Of a DNA stretch of 38,388 nucleotides, positions 27,140-34,048 are shown piece after piece. The stretch's first letter is position 1. The number at the start of each line of letters is the position of its first letter. The translations under genes and the position numbers were made by a program. The notes under the pieces were generated by a model. That model saw only the letters and a program-made list of their open reading frames with translations, searched no databases and was not told the origin of the DNA. The DNA is taken from the NCBI GenBank assembly GCA_903830945.1, contig CAIKVT010000077.1:1-38388 (forward strand). The letters are read 5' to 3'. The DNA is from an uncultured Elusimicrobia bacterium. Lineage in GTDB: Bacteria > Elusimicrobiota > Elusimicrobia > UBA1565 > UBA9628.

Positions 27140-29389
27140 ATGGCATTTGTCTGCGCTCTGCTCGTTTTAGGCCTCAGCGGCCTAGTTGGCCAGATTGTGC
27201 TCCTGCGCGAGTTCTTGGTCGTCGCCTCGGGCAACGAGCTGGCCATCGGCGTGTTCCTGGGCAACTGGCTGGCCTTGGAAGCGCTGGGATGCTTCCTGGC
27301 CGGACGGGTCTGGGCGAAGTCCGAACGCCCGGCCGCCGCCTTCGCCCTCTGCCAAGCCTGCTTCGCCGTAGCACTGCCCGCGGCCCTCTTCGCGATCCGA
27401 GACCTGCGGGCGCTCTGCGGCGCGGCCCCCGGCGAGGCTTTAAGCCTAGCGGCGATGTTCACAGTCTCGCTGGCTCTTCTGGCCTGCGTCTGCGTCCCGC
27501 ACGGCGCTCTCTTCGCCCTGGCCGGGCGCATGCGGCAGCGCGAGGATCCCGGCCGCGAGAACGGCGGCATGATCTACGGCTGGGAGACCTTGGGCACGCT
27601 GGCCGGCGGCCTCATCCTGACGTTCTGGCTCATCCCCCGCTTCCAGTCCTTCCGCATCGTTCTGGCCGTCTCGACTTTGGACCTGCTCTTCTGCGTTATG
27701 ACCCTAGCCCGCGCCAAGGAGGAACGCTCAGCGAAGCTCTGGGGCCTCTACGGCTTGGGCGCAACGGCCGCCGCGATCCTGGCGCTGGGCCCGGCCGCCG
27801 CCACGCTGCACCGCGTCTCAGTGCAGCGCCAGTGGCCCGGTTCGGAGGTCGTGTTCTACGACAACTCGGTCTACGGCAACATCACGGTGCTTAAGTCCGA
27901 AGGCCAGTTCACCTTCCTGACCGACGGCAAGATCGCCACGACCTCGCCGGTGCCCGACATCGAGTCCGTCGAGGAGCTCGCCCACTTCGCGCTCTTGGCG
28001 CAGCCCCGGCCCGACGACGTTTTGGTCCTGGGCGGCGGCGCGGGCGGCCTACTGCGCGAGGTCCTCAAGCACCCGGTCCAGCGCGTCGATTACGCGGAGC
28101 TCGACCCTCTGCTCCTAGCGGCGCTGACGCGCTTCGCGGCGCCCATGACCGGAGGCGAACTCCAGGACCCACGCGTGAGCGTCCACGCCGCGGACGGCCG
28201 GCTCTTCGTCAAAGGCGCGGCGCGCCGCTACGACGTCATCCTCATCGGCGCGCTGCAACCGGACAGCCTGCAAGCCAACCGGCTCCTCACAATGGAATTC
28301 TTCGCCTTAGCCCGGACCCGGCTCAAGCCCGGCGGCCTGCTCGCCTTCTCCTTGCCGGGGTCCACAGCCTTCCTGGAGCCGGACCTCGCGAGCCTCAACT
28401 CCTGCGTTCTGCAGGCGGCCTCGGGCGTCTTCGCCGTTGTGCGGCCCATCCCGGGTGAGACCAACATCTTTCTGGCCTCCGACGAACCTGGGTTCAACGG
28501 CCTGACCGCCGGACTGCTGATCCAGCGCCTGCGCAAGCGCCGCATACAGACCGGCTTCGTAGGCCCGGAACAGCTCTCTCTGCGCCTGGAGGAGCAATGG
28601 GGCCGGATGTTCCAGAGGTTCCTATCCCCGGTCGCGGCCCGGGCCGGGATCAACCGGGATTTTAACCCGCGAGCCGTGCTCCATGAACTGGCTGATTACA
28701 ACGCCATGTTCTCACCAGGCGCGGCGCGGCTCTTTACCTGGGCCGAGCTCCTGACCTTGCCGCGCCTGGCTGCGGCCTTAGTCGCCGTGCTGCTGGCCGC
28801 CTTAGCCTGGCATGGGCGCCGGCGCAGGCTCTCCTCCTTCGCCGCACCCTTGGCCATCATTACCACGGGCTTTGGCGGGATGGTCTATAATATGGCGCTG
28901 ACCTTCGCCTTCCAGGCGCTCTACGGCTATGTCTATCTCTGGATCGGCCTTTTGATCTCTGTGTTCATGGCCGGCGCGGCCGGAGCGAGCCTTCTGTTCT
29001 CCTGCGGGACCGGTCCCGCGCGGCGCACGTTCCTAGGCTTGGAGACCGCTCTGGTCATTTTCTCGGCGGCCCTGCCCATGACCTTCCAAGCGCTAGCCGG
29101 AGCTCCAGTCCCGGACAGCCTCATGAAAGGTGCCTTTTTGATCCTATGTCTCGTCTCCGGCGCCTTGACCGGAGCGCAGTTCCCTCTGGCCTGCCGGATG
29201 CCGGGCCCGGGCATGGCCTCGCTCTACTCTTGCGATTTATTGGGCGGCTGGCTGGGCGCGACGGTCGGCAGCGCGGTGCTCCTGCCGATCCTGGGATTGC
29301 GGGATGTCTGCTTCTGCGTGGCGCTGCTCAAACTCGCCAGCCTCGCCCTGTGCGTCGCGGCGCTGCCTCTGGCGGGACGGAAGACATGA
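27140..29389 (+). CDS. Membrane-embedded spermidine synthase-like protein
   Basis: 749 residues in three parts: about seven N-terminal membrane helices (1-235), a spermidine-synthase-like Rossmann domain (about 240-500) and about seven C-terminal helices (530-745). The nucleotide-binding motif reads VLVLGGGAGGLLREVLKH, where true enzymes have GGGDGG. The catalytic DSSDP-type segment is replaced (VILIGALQPDS), so the usual catalytic Asp is absent. FLTDGKIATTS fits the SpeE substrate loop. It thus looks like a methyl- or aminopropyl-transferase fold with another activity, held in the inner membrane. Its stop overlaps the radical SAM gene (ATGA), so the two probably work together. Confidence 0.85.
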   Translation: MAFVCALLVLGLSGLVGQIVLLREFLVVASGNELAIGVFLGNWLALEALGCFLAGRVWAKSERPAAAFALCQACFAVALPAALFAIRDLRALCGAAPGEALSLAAMFTVSLALLACVCVPHGALFALAGRMRQREDPGRENGGMIYGWETLGTLAGGLILTFWLIPRFQSFRIVLAVSTLDLLFCVMTLARAKEERSAKLWGLYGLGATAAAILALGPAAATLHRVSVQRQWPGSEVVFYDNSVYGNITVLKSEGQFTFLTDGKIATTSPVPDIESVEELAHFALLAQPRPDDVLVLGGGAGGLLREVLKHPVQRVDYAELDPLLLAALTRFAAPMTGGELQDPRVSVHAADGRLFVKGAARRYDVILIGALQPDSLQANRLLTMEFFALARTRLKPGGLLAFSLPGSTAFLEPDLASLNSCVLQAASGVFAVVRPIPGETNIFLASDEPGFNGLTAGLLIQRLRKRRIQTGFVGPEQLSLRLEEQWGRMFQRFLSPVAARAGINRDFNPRAVLHELADYNAMFSPGAARLFTWAELLTLPRLAAALVAVLLAALAWHGRRRRLSSFAAPLAIITTGFGGMVYNMALTFAFQALYGYVYLWIGLLISVFMAGAAGASLLFSCGTGPARRTFLGLETALVIFSAALPMTFQALAGAPVPDSLMKGAFLILCLVSGALTGAQFPLACRMPGPGMASLYSCDLLGGWLGATVGSAVLLPILGLRDVCFCVALLKLASLALCVAALPLAGRKT

Positions 29390-30483
29390 AGCGCTGGATC
29401 GCGCGCGTCGTAGGCGCCGCCGTGCTCGTAGGCGCTGTTTTGGTCTCCTGGAACTGGTCCGCGGAGAAGCCGCCCTTCGGCCATGAGTGCAGGTTCTACA
29501 AGACGCTCTTCGACGGCCAGGTGCAGTGTCGGCTCTGCCCACGCAAATGCGTCATCCCTGAAGGAAAACGCGGCACCTGCAACATCCGCCAGAACGTGAA
29601 CGGCAAGCTCATCCTCGTCACGTACGGCAAACCCTGCTCGATCGGAGTCGAGCCCATCGAGAAAGCTCCGCTGTTCCACTTCATGCCAGGGCACCGGCGC
29701 CTGGTCCTGGCCACGGTGGGCTGCGTGCTGCGCTGCCGCTTCTGTCAGAACTGGCAGATATCCCAGGCCGCCTTCGAGGATGTGCCGCATTACGAGCTGA
29801 GCCCGGAGCAGGTCGTGGCGGTCGCGCTGCATGAGAAGGCGGCCTCCATTTGCTTTACCTTCACCGAGCCCACGGTGTTCTACGAGTATATGTACGACGT
29901 GGCCAAGCTGGCCCATGAGAAAGGACTCAAAACCTCCATGATCACGAGCGGCTACATCGAGACCGAGCCGCTAGTCGAGCTGCTCAAGGTGCTCGACGCA
30001 GTCAAGATCGATCTCAAGGGCTTCACGGAGAAATTCTACGAGGAGATGGCCGCGGCCGACCTGGCGCCGGTCTTAGCCGCCATCAAGACAGTCAAAAAGA
30101 GCGGCCGGTGGCTGGAAATCGTCAACCTGGTCATCCCCGGCCAGAACGATGACCCCCAGGACACGGCGAGGATGTGTCGTTGGCTCAATGAGAACACGGG
30201 GGCTGACACACCCGTGCACTTCACGCGCTTTTTTCCCGCGTACAAGTTATTGAGCGTGCCGCCCACTCCCGTAGCGACACTGGTACGCGCCTACGACATC
30301 GCCAAGGCCGCGGGCTTACATTACGTCTATGTCGGCAACGTACCCGGCCATCCCATGGAGAACACCCTTTGCCCTAAATGCGGCAAGACCTTGATCGAGC
30401 GGCAAGGCTTCCAGGTCGTCAAGAACAGCCTCAAGAATGGCCGCTGCCCTTACTGCGGGGAGCGTCTCAACGGACTGTGGTGA
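29386..30483 (+). CDS. amrS: Membrane-anchored AmrS-like radical SAM enzyme
   Basis: 365 residues. An N-terminal anchor (VVGAAVLVGAVLVSW) is followed by CRLCPRKCVIPEGKRGTC, EPIEKAPLFHFMPGH and the 4Fe-4S motif GCVLRCRFCQNWQISQ (CxxxCxxC). The middle has FTFTEPTVFYEYMYDVAK and MITSGY, typical of AmmeMemoRadiSam-system radical SAM proteins, whose reaction is not known. A C-terminal zinc-ribbon-like part has CPKCGKTL and CPYCGERL. No AmmeMemo partner genes are adjacent; the 4-nt overlap with the spermidine-synthase-like gene suggests that protein is its partner. The start at 29386 is chosen for the ATGA overlap; the longer frame to 29146 lies inside the upstream gene. Confidence 0.9.
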   Translation: MKRWIARVVGAAVLVGAVLVSWNWSAEKPPFGHECRFYKTLFDGQVQCRLCPRKCVIPEGKRGTCNIRQNVNGKLILVTYGKPCSIGVEPIEKAPLFHFMPGHRRLVLATVGCVLRCRFCQNWQISQAAFEDVPHYELSPEQVVAVALHEKAASICFTFTEPTVFYEYMYDVAKLAHEKGLKTSMITSGYIETEPLVELLKVLDAVKIDLKGFTEKFYEEMAAADLAPVLAAIKTVKKSGRWLEIVNLVIPGQNDDPQDTARMCRWLNENTGADTPVHFTRFFPAYKLLSVPPTPVATLVRAYDIAKAAGLHYVYVGNVPGHPMENTLCPKCGKTLIERQGFQVVKNSLKNGRCPYCGERLNGLW

Positions 30484-30502: not shown

Positions 30503-31225
30503 TCACGAGGTGGCCTTGGCAACGATCATACGCCAGCGGAAGGCCCAGCGCCAGGAGATCTCGGACGCGAGCAGGCCGGCACGGCGCGCGAGGTCCTCGA
30601 GATCCGATCGGTGAAAGGCGCGCAACACCGAGAGCGGGGCATCATGGCGGATGAGACGGTTCCTCGAAAGCCCGGCGCTTAGCCCCCGAACCGCGTAGTA
30701 GGCGGCCGGATGGCGATGAAGGTCGTTGATCACAAGCCCCCACCGGCAGAGCTTATACATCTTGGCCAGGGCCTGGACCGCCGCGTCGTCGGGGAGATGG
30801 TGAAGGAGCAACGCCGCGTGCACGATGTCGTATGTCCGCGTGGCGGGCAGGTCGAAAAGGTCCTGGGCGGTGAATTCCAGGCCGGGCAGACCGGCATTTC
30901 TCAGGCGCGCGCAAGCCACGGCCTCCGACGCCAGATCGATACCGTAGACGCGCGCGCTCAGTCCACGCCGGCGCGCCCACGAGACGATGCGCCGCGCTGT
31001 ATCTCCCCCACCCGAGCCCACATCCAGGACGTCGAACTCGCGACACCCGGACGGGATAAGGCGCTCCAAAGCTCCCAAAGTCACGCCGTAGCCGCCCAAG
31101 GCCGCATTGATAGAGGCCAACTCCCTTAAGCACTCGGCCAATTCCGCCGGGTCGAGGTCGGAAGCATCGATGAGTTCGCGAACCTTGCTGCGCGTCTTAA
31201 AGTCCGGCGAGGCAGGATCGCTCAT
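30503..31225 (-). CDS. Class I SAM-dependent methyltransferase (type III PKS operon)
   Basis: 240 residues. The SAM-binding motif VLDVGSGGGDTARR, then RVYGIDLASEAV and DIVHAALLLHHLPDDAA mark a Rossmann methyltransferase of the UbiE/small-molecule type. It follows the type III PKS with a 4-nt ATGA overlap. By comparison with phenolic-lipid operons it could methylate a ring hydroxyl or carbon of the PKS product; srs-type operons normally use an isoprenylcysteine-methyltransferase-like enzyme instead, so this is a different enzyme class in the same slot. Confidence 0.9.
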   Translation of the reverse strand: MSDPASPDFKTRSKVRELIDASDLDPAELAECLRELASINAALGGYGVTLGALERLIPSGCREFDVLDVGSGGGDTARRIVSWARRRGLSARVYGIDLASEAVACARLRNAGLPGLEFTAQDLFDLPATRTYDIVHAALLLHHLPDDAAVQALAKMYKLCRWGLVINDLHRHPAAYYAVRGLSAGLSRNRLIRHDAPLSVLRAFHRSDLEDLARRAGLLASEISWRWAFRWRMIVAKATS

Positions 31226-32358
31226 GGTCTGGAGAAGATTGCGCCCTCCATGGTGAGCCCAGGCCCGAAACCCAGAGCCGCAACGGTGCCTTGCGAAGCC
31301 CGCCGCAATTCTTTATCCAGAACAAAAAAGATGGTCCCACTCGACATATTGCCGCAGGAGCTCAAGACCTCAAAGGAGGATCGGACCTGCGAGTCCGTCA
31401 GGCCCAGGGAAGACTGAACCTCCTCGACGATCTTGCGCCCCCCGGGATGGATGGCCCAGGCGCTGCCGCCACATTTGAGTCCCGCGCGGTCAAAAAGCTC
31501 CCCCACAAAGCCGGACGCGGCGCTCTTAAGTCGCGCAGGGACCTCGCGGTCTAGACGCATCTCGAAGCCAGAGGGTCCGATGCGCCAGGACATATGCTCG
31601 AGACTATCATTCTCGACACGGCTATGAGTGGCGACCAGGTCCGCCAACCCGACCTTGAACCGTCCGGGCCGAGCGTAGACAGCGGCGGCAGCGCCATCGG
31701 CAAAGAGACTGTTGGCCACGATGAAGTCAGGCAGGGCCCTCTTCTGGAAATGCAGGCTGCAGAGCTCGACGCAGACCTGCAGGACCACGGCCTCTGTCTC
31801 AGCCCCCAAGATCTGCCCGGCCATCCTCAGGCCGCTGAAGCCCGCATAGCAGCCCATAAAGCCCAACACCGCCCGGTGAACCTGGGAACCCAGCCCAAGA
31901 CGGCCGATAAGGAGGATATCAGGGCCGGGAGCGAATAGTCCCGTGCAGGTCGTAAAGATCAGGTGGGTGATCTCCGCGGGCTTGGCGCCCGACTCGCGCA
32001 GGGCTTTGCGGCAAGCCGCCTCCGCCAGATCGACGCTCCATTCTTCGTACACCTTCATGCGCGTCGCCGTAGTCGGGAATGGCTCAAGGGCCCAGTTAGG
32101 CGGGTAGAACTCAAAGTCCGCCGGGGAATCCTTAGTATAGTCGGCCAGGACGCTATGCCTTTTAGTGATCCCCGAGGAAGCGTATATCTTTTCAAGGAAA
32201 TCGAGTGTGACCGCGCGCCGGCGGCCCTGGAGCGTGGCCTCGGCCAAAGACGCCATGAAACGTTTGACGGCCGGCTGACCTGCTTGGTGCGGGGGCAATG
32301 CCGTCCCCAATCCATAAAGGCGAGCTCGGGCTTTCCTGCGCCGAGGAGAGTATCTCAC
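31222..32358 (-). CDS. Type III polyketide synthase (chalcone synthase-like)
   Basis: 378 residues from GTG 32358. Type III PKS enzymes extend an acyl-CoA with malonyl-CoA at one active site and cyclise the product to resorcinols, pyrones or phloroglucinols. The triad is complete: Cys in GFMGCYAGFSGL (residue 170), His in WAIHPGGRKIVE (304) and Asn in SSCGNMSSGT (337); spacing fits chalcone synthase. The nonaromatic surroundings suggest fatty acyl starters, which is inference. The start is uncertain: a TTG at 32367 lies inside a near-perfect -10 element, so the GTG at 32358, about two bases after the predicted transcript start, is favoured. Confidence 0.93.
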   Translation of the reverse strand: MRYSPRRRKARARLYGLGTALPPHQAGQPAVKRFMASLAEATLQGRRRAVTLDFLEKIYASSGITKRHSVLADYTKDSPADFEFYPPNWALEPFPTTATRMKVYEEWSVDLAEAACRKALRESGAKPAEITHLIFTTCTGLFAPGPDILLIGRLGLGSQVHRAVLGFMGCYAGFSGLRMAGQILGAETEAVVLQVCVELCSLHFQKRALPDFIVANSLFADGAAAAVYARPGRFKVGLADLVATHSRVENDSLEHMSWRIGPSGFEMRLDREVPARLKSAASGFVGELFDRAGLKCGGSAWAIHPGGRKIVEEVQSSLGLTDSQVRSSFEVLSSCGNMSSGTIFFVLDKELRRASQGTVAALGFGPGLTMEGAIFSRP

Positions 32359-32366
32359 GCGGGCCA

Positions 32367-32375
32367 ATTATAGCA
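32367..32375 (-). promoter_or_regulatory. Extended -10 promoter before the type III PKS
   Basis: TGcTATAAT on the minus strand, a perfect extended -10, in the 28-bp gap between monooxygenase and PKS genes. Start near 32360 would give an almost leaderless mRNA beginning at GTG 32358. It would allow the PKS and methyltransferase to be expressed apart from the monooxygenase. Confidence 0.6.
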
Positions 32376-32395
32376 CACGCCCGCGGGACTACAGA

Positions 32396-33547
32396 TCATC
32401 CTATTAGGCAGGATCCTGCCTGGTAGTCATGGATCGCGTGGAACGTCTTCTCGATGGCGCCCGACAAGAAAGATCGGGAGAGCTTGTTTCTCAAAAACAT
32501 GGCGCCCCAGCCCTCGGACTGGGCGAACCTGCCGATCCAACGGGCACCGAGCACAATCGCCGCGACGCGAGCGCGCCGGAGCTTCCCAAAACGGTGGAAC
32601 GCCGTTTCGATCGAGCCGCCTCCTGCCAGAAGCCGGGAAAGAACAAGAGCGTCCTCGAGCGCCTGGCAGGTCCCTTGCCCGAGATTCGGAGTCATCGGAT
32701 GCGCGGCATCGCCGATCAGCACGACTCGCCCCCTCGACAAAGTCCAGGTCGTCGGCCGATCCAGCGCCGGCGTCCTTACGATCGCTGAGTCAGGGGTCGC
32801 CGCAATGACCTCGGCGATGGGCGGATGCCAAGCTCGAAAATGATCTAGGATCCCAGCTTTACTCTGCGCCGCCGCCGTATCAGGCTGATTTCGCGTCGCA
32901 TACCAGCACACTTTTCCATCCCCGATGGGCATGATCCCGAAGCGTTCCCCTTTCCCCCAAGCCTCCGTAATATTGCCATCGGCGTAAAAGGGAGGCAGCA
33001 TCTTCGCCACCCCTCGCCAGATCATATAGCCGCGATAGACGGGACGCTCGACTTGACCCGTCACGAAATGCCTCACGACGGAGCCCAGACCGTCGGCGCC
33101 GATGACCGCATCGAATTCCGACATCCGGCCTCCCTCGAAATGCACGCGGAGCTTCCGGCCGCCTTCCGGCCCCAGGCTGATGCCCTCACAGCCCTGACTG
33201 ACATGAATCCGCCGCCGGTCCACGGCCGCGAGCAGAATCGAAAGCAACGCCGTCCGATCCAGACAGAGAGCCGGCGTCGCCTGCCCAAGGATCCGGACCG
33301 AGGCCCACTCCCGACCGCCAGGGTCCCTGAGCTGGACCCTTTCCACGCGGCTGACCACGCGCAGACATGATTCGAGCAGCCCAAGCTCGCGCAGCGCGTG
33401 CGTGGCATTCGGCCAAAGGCTCAGCCCCGCGCCGATCTCCCGGATCGCGGAGCTGCGTTCGAATATCTCAACGTCGACCCCGATGCGCCCAAGCGCGATC
33501 GCCGCGCAAAACCCGGCGATGCCGCCGCCGACCACGGCCACTTTCAT
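32396..33547 (-). CDS. FAD-dependent aromatic-ring monooxygenase
   Basis: 383 residues of the p-hydroxybenzoate-hydroxylase type. The N-terminal dinucleotide fold is VAVVGGGIAGFCAAIALG, the DG motif is VIGADGLGSVVR, and the GD motif is RVVLIGDAAHPMTPNLGQG. These enzymes use NAD(P)H, FAD and oxygen to hydroxylate aromatic rings. It stands 28 bp before the type III PKS on the same strand, as SrsC does relative to SrsA, and probably hydroxylates the resorcinol product to a quinol. It needs oxygen, so the organism should meet air at times. Confidence 0.92.
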   Translation of the reverse strand: MKVAVVGGGIAGFCAAIALGRIGVDVEIFERSSAIREIGAGLSLWPNATHALRELGLLESCLRVVSRVERVQLRDPGGREWASVRILGQATPALCLDRTALLSILLAAVDRRRIHVSQGCEGISLGPEGGRKLRVHFEGGRMSEFDAVIGADGLGSVVRHFVTGQVERPVYRGYMIWRGVAKMLPPFYADGNITEAWGKGERFGIMPIGDGKVCWYATRNQPDTAAAQSKAGILDHFRAWHPPIAEVIAATPDSAIVRTPALDRPTTWTLSRGRVVLIGDAAHPMTPNLGQGTCQALEDALVLSRLLAGGGSIETAFHRFGKLRRARVAAIVLGARWIGRFAQSEGWGAMFLRNKLSRSFLSGAIEKTFHAIHDYQAGSCLIG

Positions 33548-33586: not shown

Positions 33587-34048
33587 CTAGAACTTGGCGG
33601 AACCCGCGTCCGTGCCACCGGCGGCGCCGGAGGATGACTGGACCCCAGCGCGCGCCCCGCCGGGGAACACGAAGGTGTCGATGCGCAGCCGCGCTCCCAT
33701 CACGCCGATCCAGCGCAGATCGTCACGCTGGAAGGTCAAAAGCGGCGCGGCCTTGCAATGCAGCGTACAAACGACCTCGATGGTACACGGGGCGCCAAGC
33801 TGACCGATCTTCTGCGCGGCCGGCGCGATCTTGCGGATCAGGGCGGTCATGTAATCCTGGAACGGCGACGAGGCCAGCGCGCCGGACTCGATGATGAAAC
33901 CATGGTCCCGAGCCGCGGCCCCAAAGGCTCCAAGACGATCGCCGATCTTCCAAGATTCACTGGGCTTAAGGCCGATGCGGACCTCGATGTCCTGCGGGGT
34001 CATGGTCAGGCTCAAGATTCTAAGTCGGACGTCGGTCTGTTCATGCAT
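33587..34048 (-). CDS. DUF4279 family protein
   Basis: 153 residues. The pattern DIEVRIGLKPSESWKIGDR, then LIRKIAPAAQKIGQLGAPC and LRWIGVMGARLRIDTFVFP matches DUF4279, small proteins often seen as immunity-like or stand-alone genes, function unknown. The C-terminal 25 residues are Gly/Ala/Ser-rich. It lies 39 bp before the monooxygenase on the same strand and may share its transcript, but a biosynthetic role is not evident. The start has a -10 element eight bases upstream and no ribosome site. Confidence 0.75.
   Translation of the reverse strand: MHEQTDVRLRILSLTMTPQDIEVRIGLKPSESWKIGDRLGAFGAAARDHGFIIESGALASSPFQDYMTALIRKIAPAAQKIGQLGAPCTIEVVCTLHCKAAPLLTFQRDDLRWIGVMGARLRIDTFVFPGGARAGVQSSSGAAGGTDAGSAKF

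Follow-up and report, generated by a model that had tools for sequence, protein, structure and literature searches.

A probable hid-type alkylresorcinol-lipid operon in Elusimicrobiota, with a PHBH-type flavin monooxygenase in place of a geranylgeranyl-reductase-like oxidoreductase

To which of the known phenolic-lipid systems does a compact cluster encoding a flavin monooxygenase (FMO), a type III polyketide synthase (PKS) and a methyltransferase (MT) belong when it occurs in an uncultured member of the Elusimicrobiota, and what might it make? The cluster lies in a window of 38,388 nucleotides, the whole stretch of DNA analysed here, on contig C77 of an Elusimicrobiota metagenome-assembled genome (MAG) of 3.24 Mb and 99.3% completeness. 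The original prediction had likened the three genes to the srs phenolic-lipid pathway of Streptomyces. Our own reading, to which we give a probability of roughly 0.7, is that they form an alkylresorcinol-lipid operon of the widespread hid type, composed of a PKS, a class I MT and an FAD-dependent oxidoreductase, in which an oxidoreductase resembling geranylgeranyl (GG) reductases would have been lost, with a PHBH-type FMO in its place.

The three genes are arranged in the order FMO-PKS-MT, all on the minus strand (Table 1), and the tight linkage ascribed to them was borne out. All the open reading frames are present and intact, and their family matches lie far above chance. The PKS stop and the MT start overlap by 4 nt (ATGA), and 37 nt separate the FMO stop from the GTG at 32358. 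Alignment places the PKS start at this GTG, where relatives begin with ATG or GTG, and it is most likely the true start instead of the listed TTG at 32367, which falls inside a TATAAT box. The perfect extended −10 previously noted ahead of the PKS is indeed there: TGCTATAAT is the sole exact match in the window, with 0.10 expected, and ends about 8 nt ahead of the GTG, close enough for the transcript to be leaderless. As the TATAAT is common to the window and the close relative L032 only, being absent in L031, L034 and L035, and as a sigma-70 scan returned no full promoter or promoter-like site, partial expression of the PKS apart from the FMO is possible but unproven. Terminators in the same scan were below chance.

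Table 1. Position and strand of the genes of the cluster and of the promoter-like box within the window
Feature	Position	Strand	Remarks
FAD-dependent PHBH-type monooxygenase (FMO)	32396..33547	(-)	383 aa; proposed ring hydroxylase
Type III PKS	31222..32358	(-)	likely GTG start 32358; listed ORF to 32367 from TTG, 381 aa
Class I SAM methyltransferase (MT), PRK06202-like	30503..31225	(-)	240 aa
Extended −10-like TGCTATAAT	32367..32375	(-)	upstream of PKS GTG; putative

The GC content of the operon (61-66%) is like that of its left flank and falls only beyond position 34000, so there is no sign of a recent import of the operon alone. To its right, between 34000 and 38388, where an ECF sigma factor and a thioredoxin are encoded, GC is down to 52-55%, against about 63% before. 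On the other side, a radical SAM protein of the AmmeMemoRadiSam system (29146-30483, plus strand; TIGR04337, 373 bits) is convergent with the operon. The DUF4279 gene located upstream of the operon (33587-34048) was not found upstream of the FMO in the gene lists of the relatives and is not counted as part of it.

The PKS is a type III enzyme of the chalcone synthase superfamily, as indicated by its domains (Chal_sti_synt_N, 7.6e-28; Chal_sti_synt_C, 4.1e-21; Pfam), by its catalytic triad and by its fold, the AlphaFold model (pLDDT 92.9) giving a best VIA Z of 50.0 to 2h84 and a Z of about 50 also to 4b0n. The Cys-His-Asn triad had been described as intact, and C173, H307 and N340 (numbered, like all PKS residues here, on the 381-aa frame) proved invariant over 117 aligned PKSs. 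More informative on the product is W261, which shares its alignment column with Gly256 of chalcone synthase (CHS) and Tyr224 of THNS, two residues known to correspond (PMC6274091); its equivalence to the ArsB-281 position was drawn through this column. In ArsB, W281 is required for resorcinol formation and its loss leads to pyrone, and ArsC W284 and Met293, observed in an ArsC mutant, show the same nine-residue spacing (PMC6274091) as W261 and M270 in the window. The same column holds Trp in Steely1, and Leu in PKS18 and the Ectocarpus PKS. This combination of Trp261 and Met270, spaced as their ArsC counterparts are, points to a PKS that would favour resorcinol over pyrone, and the enzyme is predicted to be an alkylresorcinol synthase, which would act on a fatty acyl starter.

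The MT, a soluble enzyme, matches Methyltransf_25 (3.3e-15; Pfam), and its best NCBIfam model is PRK06202, followed by UbiG. The earlier description of a UbiE-type class I enzyme distinct from the membrane isoprenylcysteine carboxyl methyltransferases (ICMT) is right as to class I and to the distinction from ICMT, while 'UbiE-type' was a loose label. The third enzyme is a PHBH-type (group A) flavin monooxygenase, with FAD_binding_3 (3.8e-21; Pfam) and the GxGxxG, DG and GD motifs represented by GGGIAG at residue 7, GADG at 150 and GDAAHP at 279. Its best models are PRK06753 and HpxO, the named enzymes closest to it hydroxylate urate, tropone and hydroxynicotinate, and its nearest solved sequences are tropone 2-monooxygenase and a flavoprotein monooxygenase; the alkylresorcinol ring is proposed as its substrate.

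Within the phylum, 13 Elusimicrobiota genomes out of 341 carry a PKS of the window clade (cut-off E < 1e-100). A search of related genomes had been suggested as a check on the operon, and it recovered FMO-PKS-MT in G000, G234 (of the same genus as the host), G183 and G190, together with FMO-PKS devoid of an adjoining MT in G208, so that the FMO sits beside the PKS in five genomes. PKS-MT pairs were found in G231, with neither oxidoreductase adjoining, and in G211, where the locus is interrupted by a contig end. The remaining arrangement is PKS-MT-oxidoreductase, seen in G193 (of the same family as the host), G204, G210, G186, G189 and G185, and more distant loci in G002, G004 and G005 also unite the three genes. 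The best model for the oxidoreductase of these relatives is TIGR02032, of the GG-reductase superfamily, and this form is carried by the close relative G193 and by eight more distant genomes. The PKS-MT pair is kept in all main-clade Elusimicrobiota loci except that of G208; this genome carries, in another place, a further and distant locus with PKS, MT and oxidoreductase (L145). Among the 16 genomes searched with each protein, none has strong matches to both the FMO and the GG-reductase-like oxidoreductase beside the same PKS; the latter is absent beside the window operon and no match better than 9.0e-9 was found in the host genome. Because the relatives within Elusimicrobiota are mostly MAGs, absences among them may be gaps. 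FMO orthologues (72-100% identity) appeared in six genomes phylum-wide, five of them adjoining the PKS; the sixth, in G195 (78%; L142, 6279-7418, plus strand), is an intact frame standing solitary, with neither PKS nor MT. This solitary copy and the PKS-MT pair of G231 indicate that the association of FMO with PKS is not a strict one. As a separate observation, more distant Elusimicrobiota type III PKSs come immediately after a radical SAM protein with B12-binding domain in L044 (8294-10773), L045 (7203-9685), L047 (6587-9069), L048 (7350-9838) and L050 (7972-10475); the best model of the radical SAM protein is TIGR04072 ('lipid biosynthesis'), below its cut-off, and in these PKSs Phe replaces Trp at the resorcinol position.

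Outside the phylum, 84,980 species were scanned and the neighbourhoods of the best 80 named PKS loci, which come from Bacteroidota, Cyanobacteriota, Planctomycetota, Myxococcota, Chloroflexota, Spirochaetota and others, were inspected. A class I MT adjoins the PKS in 54 of these 80, and in 48 of the 54 a GG-reductase-like oxidoreductase is present as well; the other 26 show no partner matched by the profiles used. An ICMT beside the PKS was found in none of the 80. The original prediction was right in noting that the MT of the window is unlike SrsB, an ICMT (PMC6669644). The window-type FMO appears among the 80 in L059 only, which is the same contig as in G234. Since the query used also detects, at 216 bits, a Nostoc FMO that is only 34% identical, a related FMO beside the best loci would have been seen.

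Phylogenies of the PKS (117 rows) and of the oxidoreductases, both obtained by a quick search and both with long branches, suggest the direction of the exchange. The window PKS lies in a clade of seven Elusimicrobiota rows (support 99), nested in eleven Elusimicrobiota rows (95) and these inside 16 rows that include Chloroflexota, Myxococcota and Planctomycetota (100). The oxidoreductase tree separates the FMOs, as a single clade (100), from the GG-reductase-like enzymes. There the oxidoreductase of G193 clusters with its other Elusimicrobiota counterparts (9-row set, 99), as the PKS tree would lead one to expect; from both features it appears that the GG-reductase-like oxidoreductase is probably ancestral and that the FMO came in later. 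The most economical reading would be an ancestor with PKS-MT-oxidoreductase, a single arrival of the FMO at the base of the 7-row clade or close to it, and loss of the old oxidoreductase in the FMO-bearing members of that clade.

Srs, Hid and Ars were compared through proxies, namely cyanobacterial and planctomycetal loci of matching gene content and ICMT-linked PKS loci, and the hid-type assignment of the window, made through the cyanobacterial and planctomycetal ones, is to be read in this sense. The known operons that match are two that the original prediction had missed, hidABC and the MT-oxidoreductase-PKS operon of planctomycetes (PMC10896814, PMC8086630). Found in Cyanobium as well as in other cyanobacteria, hidABC is the operon for hierridin (Costa 2019; PMC8086630), hierridin B being a 5-alkylresorcinol with a hydroxyl at C4 and two O-methyl groups (PMC10896814). 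Like the window, hidABC combines type III PKS, methyltransferase and FAD oxidoreductase, and in the window too a class I MT of the operon family adjoins the PKS. However, the oxidoreductase at the HidB position is GG-reductase-like in the cyanobacterial loci checked and PHBH-type in the window; the order is MT-oxidoreductase-PKS, as in hidABC, or PKS-MT-oxidoreductase in loci of this type, against FMO-PKS-MT here; and the window PKS is only about 39-41% identical to the cyanobacterial ones. In the planctomycetal operon, PKSs expressed in Corynebacterium made pentadecyl- and heptadecylresorcinol (C15/C17), co-expression of MT and oxidoreductase added one methyl, probably on carbon in the case of the Gimesia MT, and the role of the oxidoreductase 'remains to be elucidated' (PMC10896814). 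It shares the PKS and MT families with the window (Paludisphaera MT 36% and PKS 38% identical) and differs in the GG-reductase-like oxidoreductase of the loci checked, in its MT-oxidoreductase-PKS order and in the probable carbon methylation by Gimesia. Loci of Deinococcus radiophilus pRadio1 and Methylobacterium oryzae (L051, L054) likewise present PKS, then class I MT, then an FAD enzyme, which in their case falls outside the window FMO family. Taken over all loci of characterised kind, identity of the PKS is only about 38-43%.

The likeness to srs retains part of its value, given that srsABC of Streptomyces griseus and pkqABC of Mycobacterium smegmatis comprise the same three reaction types, with a monooxygenase as third enzyme (SrsC is annotated as such, and our FMO is a PHBH-type hydroxylase), and have as proposed outcome a methylated alkylquinol or quinone. 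The enzyme set and a phenolic-lipid product, from alkylresorcinol to quinol, are supported by the type III PKS with its resorcinol-type Trp, the class I MT and the PHBH-type hydroxylase; filing the operon under srs is not supported. That it was inherited together with srsABC or pkqABC and makes the same methoxy-alkylquinones is very unlikely, even though pkqA-type PKSs also carry Trp at the ArsB-281 position: the MT of the window is class I and SrsB an ICMT (PMC6669644); the window PKS groups with class I MT-linked PKSs, while the ICMT-linked ones of Azospirillum, Sulfitobacter and Sphingomonas plasmids, taken as proxies for SrsA and PkqA, fall elsewhere in the 117-row tree; and the ancestral partner in the relatives is the GG-reductase-like oxidoreductase. 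Membership in srs was rejected on the first two of these grounds. Streptomyces plasmid PKSs (L056, L057, L148, L150, L152) were also discarded as srs loci, having no ICMT match adjoining and Tyr in the THNS column. It is quite unlikely, too, that the compound decorated by MT and FMO is an alkylpyrone or some further PKS product that is no resorcinol. Type III PKSs often yield both rings in vitro and pyrone makers such as PKS18 are among the nearest solved sequences; yet the Trp of the window PKS corresponds to Leu in PKS18 and in the Ectocarpus PKS, and planctomycetal enzymes of the same operon kind yielded resorcinols. Also unlikely is an FMO that acts on an unrelated substrate next to a working unit of PKS and MT alone, as the solitary FMO of G195, the pair of G231 and the −10-like box that two genomes have between the FMO and PKS genes could suggest. 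Against it, 5 genomes over three families have the FMO immediately upstream of the PKS and in the same direction, and it is found exactly where the other oxidoreductase is lost.

A further possibility concerns the function of the product, which might be a polyketide quinone serving as membrane electron carrier for cytochrome bd in replacement of menaquinone; such quinones are made by Mycobacterium and Streptomyces (PMC9927152). The host genome contains CydA (4.3e-164), and single family searches of this 99.3% complete assembly returned no heme-copper oxidase (COX1), no MqnA/D family match and no MenD over the cut-off, its UbiA proteins being weakly MenA-like. Moreover, CydA occurs in 5 of the 6 FMO genomes and in 0 of the 9 with the other oxidoreductase. 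We hold this role to be unlikely all the same, since a divergent or other quinone path is possible, CydA is also found in close relatives lacking the clade PKS (G229, G232, G233), and the link between CydA and FMO (Fisher 0.002 with no treatment of kinship) comes down to one informative tree-independent pair, for which reason the association is not claimed and the respiratory role is only an idea. A bolder proposal, and an improbable one, would be that the operon makes a non-isoprenoid, polyketide respiratory quinone feeding bd in Elusimicrobiota that have no recognised menaquinone genes, and that the swap from GG-reductase-like oxidoreductase to O2-dependent hydroxylase marks lineages taking up oxygen respiration. 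Two loci deserve mention here. A MenD-family match on contig C39, an open frame of 608 aa with an SDR-like gene as neighbour, was set aside as by eye probably another thiamine-diphosphate enzyme, and one UbiA prenyltransferase of the host, weakly MenA-like (L143, 5302-9286, plus strand), is placed among three genes whose products resemble radical SAM enzymes in their cysteine motifs.

Returning to the hid-type alkylresorcinol operon, its best reading would be srs-like chemistry on a hid-type chassis, whose steps can be proposed from the protein families. The PKS would load a long-chain fatty acyl-CoA or acyl-ACP, add three malonyl units and close the ring by aldol condensation to give a 5-alkylresorcinol. 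With NAD(P)H and O2, the FMO would hydroxylate the ring to an alkyl-hydroxyquinol, oxidisable to the quinone, and a PHBH-type enzyme in the oxidoreductase's place would fit such a reaction. The MT might methylate either a hydroxyl, in the manner of HidA, or a carbon of the ring, the site proposed for Gimesia maris, and both modifications could take place in either order. The product is probably a methylated, ring-hydroxylated phenolic lipid, which might end as a methylated alkylquinol or quinone in the membrane.

To our knowledge, no product is known from Elusimicrobiota. Overall, these data would extend the hid-type alkylresorcinol operon to this phylum, where the enzyme of the operon that is least understood has been cleanly exchanged. 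If the oxidoreductase can be replaced by an aromatic hydroxylase, and one of a well-known kind, this suggests that both enzymes hydroxylate the alkylresorcinol ring. The locus also makes it possible to ask in concrete terms if polyketide quinones are used in an uncultured phylum.
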